Under the pieces are notes generated by a model. The model ran no database searches. It saw nothing but the letters and a program-made list of their open reading frames with translations, and was not told the origin of the DNA. DNA of 64,000 nt. It comes from Propionibacteriaceae bacterium (GTDB lineage: Bacteria > Actinomycetota > Actinomycetes > Propionibacteriales > Propionibacteriaceae). How positions within the stretch are numbered: the stretch's first letter is position 1; each line of letters opens with the position of its first letter. This document shows positions 10,101 through 10,266 of this stretch, in pieces. The stretch spans positions 33,051 to 97,050 of the forward strand of contig JAUNKV010000002.1 of assembly GCA_030532575.1 (NCBI GenBank), read 5' to 3'. The position numbers and the translations under genes were made by a program.

Positions 10101-10191
10101 ACCCTGCTGTGCTGTCCCCGGGAGGGCCCCCGGGGATGACCCGCTTTGTAGTTGCGGGGTAACCGTGCTCCCCACCTCCGTGGGGATGGCC
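10101..10191 (+). ncRNA. Putative CreR-type Cas-regulating RNA (two pseudo-repeats and one short spacer)
   Basis: Two repeat-like hairpins flank a 21-22-base segment. Pseudo-repeat 1 (about 10113-10142) ends GGGGATGACCC, one base different from the array repeat end GGGGATGATCC, and has a CCCCGGG/CCCGGGG stem. Pseudo-repeat 2 (10165-10191) reads GTGCTCCCC...GTGGGGATGGCC with a TCCCCAC/GTGGGGA stem. Taking the 8-base handle ATGACCCG, the spacer-like part is CTTTGTAGTTGCGGGGTA (10144-10161). It matches CTTTGAAGTTTTGGGGTA at 10214-10231, beside the cas3 promoter, with mismatches only at positions 6, 11 and 12. In type I-E Cascade every sixth base (6, 12, ...) is flipped out and not read. Such crRNA-like RNAs with partial matches to cas promoters are known as CreR. 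Function here is inferred. Confidence 0.6.
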
Positions 10192-10205
10192 TCTGCTGCA
10201 GCAGA
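10192..10205. promoter_or_regulatory. 14-bp perfect palindrome upstream of I-E cas3
   Basis: TCTGCTGCAGCAGA is a perfect dyad directly after pseudo-repeat 2 and before the cas3 promoter. It may be an operator for a dimeric regulator, or form the 3' end of the small RNA (AAAA follows). Nothing in the window identifies a binding protein. Confidence 0.35.
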
Positions 10206-10213
10206 AAACCAAC

Positions 10214-10231
10214 CTTTGAAGTTTTGGGGTA
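10214..10231 (+). promoter_or_regulatory. Candidate Cascade/CreR target site next to the cas3 promoter
   Basis: CTTTGAAGTTTTGGGGTA matches the mini-array spacer at 15 of 18 positions. The triplet AAC precedes it in the PAM position. A Cascade footprint of about 33 bases from 10214 would reach about 10246 and cover the -35 box at 10238-10243, which would block transcription. Confidence 0.55.
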
Positions 10232-10237
10232 CGGGGG

Positions 10238-10266
10238 TTGCACTGTACTTTCGGATGACGTAGACT
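10238..10266 (+). promoter_or_regulatory. Promoter of the type I-E cas operon
   Basis: TTGCAC (10238-10243), a 17-base spacer, then TAGACT (10261-10266). This is a good sigma-70-type promoter with transcription expected near 10273, about 25 bases before the cas3 ATG at 10299. Confidence 0.7.

Follow-up and report, generated by a model that had tools for sequence, protein, structure and literature searches.

A candidate CreR mini-CRISPR array upstream of a type I-E cas operon in a Propionibacteriaceae bacterium, with possible mimics on mobile elements of Actinobacteria

We examined a 64,000-nucleotide stretch of DNA from a Propionibacteriaceae bacterium (assembly GCA_030532575.1, contig JAUNKV010000002.1, positions 33,051 to 97,050), referred to here as the window; all window features are given on the forward strand. 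The window encodes a type I-E CRISPR-Cas system. The cas3 gene (10299–13211) was assigned by a Cas3 family match, and its product shows 91% identity to the protein of Arachnia propionica OH887_COT-365. Its start is the ATG at 10299, not the TTG at 10152 with which the open reading frame 10152–13211 first begins. The genes cse1 (open reading frame 13010–14821) and cse2 (14542–15423) together occupy 13010–15423, with limits as listed for the frames and starts unrefined. NCBIfam matches were obtained for Cas3, Cse1, and Cse2, and open frames lie at the places expected for cas7, cas5, cas6, cas1, and cas2, as read by position only from the list of open reading frames. A type I-E CRISPR array found by pattern search at 19213–25181 contains 98 copies of the 27-nt repeat ATGTTCCCCGCACAGCGGGGATGATCC, a count obtained using a pattern with two loose positions, and mostly 33-nt spacers. 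Two of its 97 intervals, each of at least 45 bases, were left out of the spacer set.

Type I-G repeats are also present. We considered, and rejected, a type I-G CreR formed from the degenerate I-G repeats at 28–63 and 101–136. These are the tail of an upstream I-G array that has 19 further repeats in locus L184, with 10 N separating its two parts, and whose repeat differs from that of the array at 8892–9778. The guides read after the degenerate repeats have no site before the I-G genes.

Between the I-G array, whose last exact repeat starts near 9737, and cas3 lies a mini-array with two pseudo-repeats (10110–10191) that adjoins the type I-E system. A sequence-only reading of the window had described two repeat-like hairpins around a short spacer here; the sequence and coordinates are as claimed, and both pseudo-repeats fold as hairpins. 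Pseudo-repeat 1 (10110–10142) consists of a hairpin and the handle ATGACCC (10136–10142), as judged from its sequence, fold, and by-eye alignment to the array repeat. Pseudo-repeat 2, GTGCTCCCCACCTCCGTGGGGATGGCC, spans 10165–10191. The predicted folding energies are -19.1 and -14.1 kcal/mol for pseudo-repeats 1 and 2, respectively, and -13.0 kcal/mol for the true array repeat. Between them is the short guide CTTTGTAGTTGCGGGGTAACC (10144–10164), of which the 18 positions compared with the target, starting at 10144, are CTTTGTAGTTGCGGGGTA. In the main I-E array, the repeat terminates in ATGATCC and the first spacer base after it varies, so one free base (10143) with guide position 1 at 10144 is the natural I-E register. 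This register is kept in relatives, where the guide is of similar length in several loci and longer in a few (L010, L022). The sequence TAGCAT (10091–10096) is probably the -10 element of a mini-array promoter, and TAGACT occurs shortly 5' of the pseudo-repeat in some relatives (L009, L011, L012, L015). In having two degenerate repeats of the cognate type that frame a guide near the cas operon, the element displays a feature of CreR RNAs.

The guide agrees with a site at 10214–10231 at 15 of 18 positions, with mismatches at 6, 11, and 12, precisely as had been noticed from the letters alone. The site is preceded by the PAM AAC (10211–10213). Sites in relatives likewise carry an AAN PAM, although our scans of those sites required AA. 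The probable cas3 promoter, read from the sequence, consists of TTGCAC (10238–10243), 17 bases, and TAGACT (10261–10266); the A. propionica OH887 locus (L009) has TTGCGC-17-TAGACT in the same place. The target ends 6 bases before TTGCAC, which agrees with its earlier placement just upstream of the cas3 -35 box. Dinucleotide shuffling of the 108-base promoter region gave a match of 15/18, on either strand, once in 20,000 trials, and the 64-kb window contains no other site of at least 14/18, the guide itself aside. The guide partially matches, behind a PAM, the putative promoter of its own cas operon, a further feature of CreR. The anatomy and partial complementarity are equally those of CreTA/CrePA-type RNAs, in which the RNA guards a toxin gene (modules of this kind are described in PMC12737573, PMC13131331, and PMC12948488). 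Such a role in place of cas regulation is very improbable for the window element, given that its sole strong site in the 64-kb window is the cas3 promoter and that the sites of its relatives lie either before cas3 or close to the 3' end of that gene.

We searched 60 genomes, including the window's own, with the mini-array region and obtained matches in two, the window's own genome and that of A. propionica OH887_COT-365 (G034). In the latter (L002/L077), the guide TTGGCAGACTTCGGGGTA is paired with the site TTGGCAGATTTTGGGGTG and the PAM AAT, and the seed is altered on both sides. Searches with Cas3 gave matches in 65 of 197 genomes of the family (distant helicases included; the best 30 places were taken as loci), in four of six further genomes, and in 32 of 112 Bifidobacterium genomes. 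We examined 55 cas3 upstream regions, leaving out loci at contig ends (L021, L025, L031, L116, L124, L127) as well as L104 and L105. A handle-plus-guide unit was present in 28 of the 55 regions and was not found by the search pattern in the other 27. Among the 28, 22 have an AAN site with a full or near-full seed nearby; a convincing site is absent in the other six (L036, L115, L125, L129, L131, L133). In some of the pattern-negative regions the unit is located elsewhere: L101 has it on the opposite strand, and four Bifidobacterium genomes have it close to the cas3 3' end.

As a swap control, 21 native guides were compared with the 55 regions, each cut to 400 bases. Twenty of the 21 cognate pairs scored at least 14.5. 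The remaining pair, with a score of 9.0, is taken to be L032, which was added by hand and has its site outside the 400-base cut. Only 18 of 1,134 non-cognate pairs scored at least 14, and 11 of the 15 shown were between sister loci. Independent divergence of guide and target in relatives had been named beforehand as evidence that would count against the proposed regulation. This comparison did not reveal such divergence: A. propionica OH887 has changed both partners, and swapped pairs score far lower.

The distribution of mismatches was determined over 28 selected guide–target pairs, 21 from the cas3 upstream regions and seven from a further scan of 42 loci (L081 has no row). Repeats (L071, L077, L098, and L018, which repeats L019) and unconvincing weaker matches (L047, L073, L078, L082, L090, L096, L099) were left out. 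Positions 1–5 and 7 show no mismatches and position 8 shows one, low counts that prove little because these positions were search criteria. Positions 9–11, scored only toward the total, are mismatched in 6, 3, and 1 pairs, respectively, and position 13 in 4. Mismatches then rise to 9, 13, 17, and 15 at positions 14–17, indicating that pairing weakens past position 13. A mismatch was never required at positions 6, 12, and 18, and these behave as unconstrained (23, 22, and 21 of 28 mismatched, against a chance expectation of 21 of 28). Cascade flips out every sixth base of the guide pairing, and free positions at 6, 12, and 18 are what reading of the guide by Cascade would predict. The earlier argument that mismatches 6 and 12 are ignored as flipped-out bases is backed by these peaks, set against the low counts at 9, 10, 11, and 13. 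Two native Bifidobacterium guides, in L192 (genome G267) and L195 (G277), match nearly fully over 18 positions (mismatches only at 6 and 18, or at 2 and 15), so an interrupted match is not universal.

The mini-array might instead be the decayed end of an ordinary array, its match to the promoter being a remnant of chance or duplication without function. In its favor, the pseudo-repeats depart from the array consensus, and array ends can carry degenerate repeats. However, guide, register, PAM, and target are kept across genera despite sequence change, the mismatches cluster where Cascade pairing predicts, and co-variation with a promoter is not what a remnant would show. The co-variation largely refutes this explanation, which we regard as highly unlikely. 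We assign a probability of roughly 0.88 to the alternative that the window mini-array is a CreR that autorepresses its own type I-E cas operon. This interpretation, first proposed from the window alone, gains support from the co-variation, the swap control, and the free positions 6, 12, and 18. From the anatomy, match, register, PAM, and co-variation observed, we infer transcription, processing, binding, and repression as follows. The mini-array RNA would resemble a crRNA, be cut at its pseudo-repeats by the I-E processing enzyme, and then be loaded into Cascade. The guide would bring Cascade to the cas3 promoter by means of an AAN PAM, a paired seed, and a match over about 18 positions; there the complex would cover the -35 region and lower cas transcription. 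Cutting by Cas3 is not expected because the match is short and interrupted. Repression would be lifted when crRNAs or inhibitors draw Cascade away.

A second match to the mini-array region in the window's own genome (G000) is C39, a contig of 53,523 bases from the same assembly. C39 codes for a MobF-type/TrwC-type relaxase fused to helicase and primase domains, a T4SS coupling protein, a DarB-like antirestriction protein, methyltransferases, a ParA-like protein, and an M23/NlpC peptidase whose best PHROG match is a tail tape-measure family. A Tessaracoccus flavescens plasmid is first among the PLSDB matches listed for the relaxase (59.6% identity over 67%). The final 55 bases of C39 recur without change at the end of contig C73, and the opening 55 bases do so at the end of contig C43. 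A gene that we take to be trxB starts at the C39 end. Most simply, the circle would close through the interior of this gene, merged by the assembler with a chromosomal copy. We interpret C39 as a circular plasmid of conjugative type that was assembled along with the window's chromosome.

C39 contains two mini-arrays, near 49976–50101 and 53191–53320, each made up of three pseudo-repeats with guides between them, for four guides in all (u0–u3). The second mini-array (C39:53191–53523; L007, L179) lies between a helix-turn-helix gene with a weak Aca2/YdiL-like match (E 2.4e-4, below the Pfam cut-off) and the putative trxB start, which is nearly identical there to the copy on C73. Guide u1, CTTTGCAGTTACGGGGTA, matches the host CreR guide at 16 of 18 positions and the host cas3 site at 15 of 18; its mismatches to the site, at 6, 11, and 12, are those of the native guide. 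Guides u2 and u3 resemble the host CreR guide but fit the host promoter less well: u3 has a partial site only, and neither u0 nor u2 has a good site at this host's cas promoter. The C39 mini-arrays could in principle regulate plasmid genes, since u2 has a seed-level site (12/18, AAC PAM) inside the relaxase gene. This site is intragenic and weak, and the C39 sites listed for u1 and u3 include none outside the arrays with an AA PAM, which makes regulation of the plasmid itself very improbable.

We compared C39 with 124 host spacers, of which 95 belong to type I-E and the remainder to two I-G arrays (11 and 18 spacers). Perfect matches were obtained for three. The I-E spacer at 24703–24735 is identical over 33/33 positions to C39:361–393; that at 25062–25094 matches C39:4497–4529 over 33/33, with an AAG PAM in the I-E register; and the I-G spacer at 9411–9445 matches C39:34840–34874 over 35/35. 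At the protospacer 361–393, AAG lies one base further out. One further I-E spacer matches with four mismatches and one I-G spacer with seven, compared with nine mismatches at best for the same 124 spacers against one shuffled C39. The two I-E spacers (24703–25094) sit at the end of the array away from the presumed cas2 frame. If, as is probable, this end is the older one, the plasmid and its host would have coexisted for a long time.

C39 is, then, a mobile element that coexists with matching host spacers, their coexistence in one cell resting on the shared assembly. Such coexistence is a usual hint of anti-CRISPR activity. Most likely, the C39 guide would act on the same promoter site as the native guide, deepening host repression and keeping Cascade occupied, and the plasmid would thereby survive its matching spacers. 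The perfect I-G spacer implies that the mini-arrays are not the whole story. The I-G system is not expected to be silenced by them, and other inhibitors may act beside them.

Mini-arrays of this kind recur beyond C39. The pattern was found at 26 places in 19 of the 197 family genomes, against three control hits, although some of these, including one on G000:C63, fall within open frames and appear to be chance hits. In Bifidobacterium it was found at 17 places in 14 of 112 genomes, against none in the control. A degenerate pattern applied to the 112 Bifidobacterium genomes was discarded: it gave 8 places in 7 genomes, and its reversed control gave 11. The short-spacer I-E mini-array pattern was found in seven stretches of IMG/VR. 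Of five extra viral loci, L168 looks like a real mini-array and L169–L172 like chance; a viral scan by guide pattern alone gave 17 loci, of which nothing was used.

The IMG/VR contig L045 encodes an integrase and a phage-type primase, and we read it as a temperate phage. Its guide TAGAACATGTACGGGATC differs from the site TAGAAAATGTATGGGATG in Olsenella sp. KH3B4 only at positions 6, 12, and 18, so that all 15 scored positions agree. This site lies at the cas3 3' end, just 5' of that locus's own mini-array and cse1. The L045 mini-array (11014–11110) is directly followed by a terminator-like hairpin and a T run, as in a free-standing small-RNA gene. In L043, whose viral status rests on IMG/VR and whose PHROG matches are weak, the guide is the same over 21 bases as the one in Bifidobacterium genome G246; judging from coordinates, the G246 guide sits near the cas3 3' end, and a site for it is found locally. 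One guide of L042 also occurs in B. choerinum (at L070, a locus with phage tail genes); the other shows a weaker fit to the B. italicum cas3 site. In genome G068, a second mini-array lies on the 58-kb contig C25, likely a plasmid. Across 18 positions, the guide of this mini-array departs from the native guide at position 18 alone, and the neighboring gene has an actin-like match that is weak and falls below the Pfam cut-off. The 19 visible spacers of G068 have no match longer than 18 bases to C25.

We scored 22 mobile-element guides against 63 cas regions. Two guides reached at least 17.5, compared with none of 6,600 shuffled guides; five reached 15 (0.57 expected) and seven reached 14.5 (1.3 expected). 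Only C39 u1 and L045 stand on score alone, and the L043 and G068 cases lean on their near-identity to native guides. The phage-like Bifidobacterium guides of L044, L046/L065, and L047 share the pattern and have no convincing target in the 63 cas regions. L047 (IMG/VR 2791355248) carries an array of four short, differing guides, three of which also occur in Bifidobacterium genome G257 (L188). L041, an IMG/VR contig that encodes an FtsK-like protein, has five tandem short-spacer I-E-like units with diverse guides at about 3900–4250; these guides likewise have no convincing target among the 63 cas regions.

We give even odds to the proposal that CreR mimics occur on actinobacterial plasmids and temperate phages, where they would serve as guide-programmed RNA anti-CRISPRs that silence cas transcription. 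Their host specificity would be set by the guide, and the several guides carried by some elements may suit several hosts. A competing possibility is that the plasmid copy is a spare host-type CreR that eases the burden of self-targeting spacers, or a Racr-like sponge for Cas6 or Cascade in which the guide is irrelevant. Repeat mimics alone can inhibit CRISPR, as the Racrs described in PMC10651486 do, two I-E ones among them. Unlinked second copies also occur in G016 and G227, no more than about 320 bases from the end of a contig and beside genes that look chromosomal by eye. A sponge needs no guide, yet C39 u1 agrees with the host CreR guide at the 16 positions noted above and addresses the same site, and the L045 guide fits the Olsenella site at every scored position. 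We therefore regard the spare-copy or sponge explanation as doubtful, though it deserves serious consideration. The mimic proposal leads to the testable idea that mobile elements beat CRISPR by supplying a guide against its own promoter. If true, it would join cas autoregulation with RNA anti-CRISPRs and help explain how plasmids persist despite perfect host spacers.

The primary CreR paper is reportedly that of Liu et al. (Cell Host & Microbe, 2023). In a 2026 review, CreRs are said to mediate autorepression in types I-B, I-E, and V-A (PMC13131331), and the CreR mechanism is described in PMC12737573 and PMC12948488. The window element resembles these RNAs in being a mini-CRISPR near cas with a short guide, a partial match to a cas promoter, and an expected autorepression, and it appears to be a further CreR with no evident difference from those described. 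The sequence-only reading had considered it undescribed; its identity as a CreR is supported, but autorepression by type I-E CreRs is already stated in PMC13131331. The element adds a well-supported actinobacterial example of a type I-E CreR, and together with its relatives it provides a natural set of partial guide–target pairs from which the positions that Cascade seems to tolerate can be read.

The plasmid and phage-like copies differ from CreRs in that they ride mobile elements and would act, if at all, in trans on the host cas operon. Open PubMed Central yielded no report of CreR mimics on mobile elements, and the subscription literature could hold one. Like Racrs, the copies are mobile-element RNAs that mimic repeats and might inhibit CRISPR; Racrs, however, are solitary repeat units as presented in PMC10651486 and act by repeat mimicry, whereas here at least two pseudo-repeats frame a guide to a cas promoter, and the C39 arrays do not have the single repeat, free of a second repeat and guide, that marks a Racr. 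Virus-borne mini-CRISPR arrays are also short arrays on mobile elements that use host Cas proteins (PMC11656645; see also PMC6858448). The spacers of those arrays are described as directed mostly at related viruses, whereas the guides found here, about 21 nt long, match cas promoters partially and with interruptions. CreTA/CrePA modules share the use of Cascade and a partially complementary crRNA-like guide as a repressor (PMC12737573), but the target here is cas, and the 64-kb window holds no toxin promoter target. The mobile-element copies are probably a new variant, an RNA anti-CRISPR that would work through the host's own autorepression.
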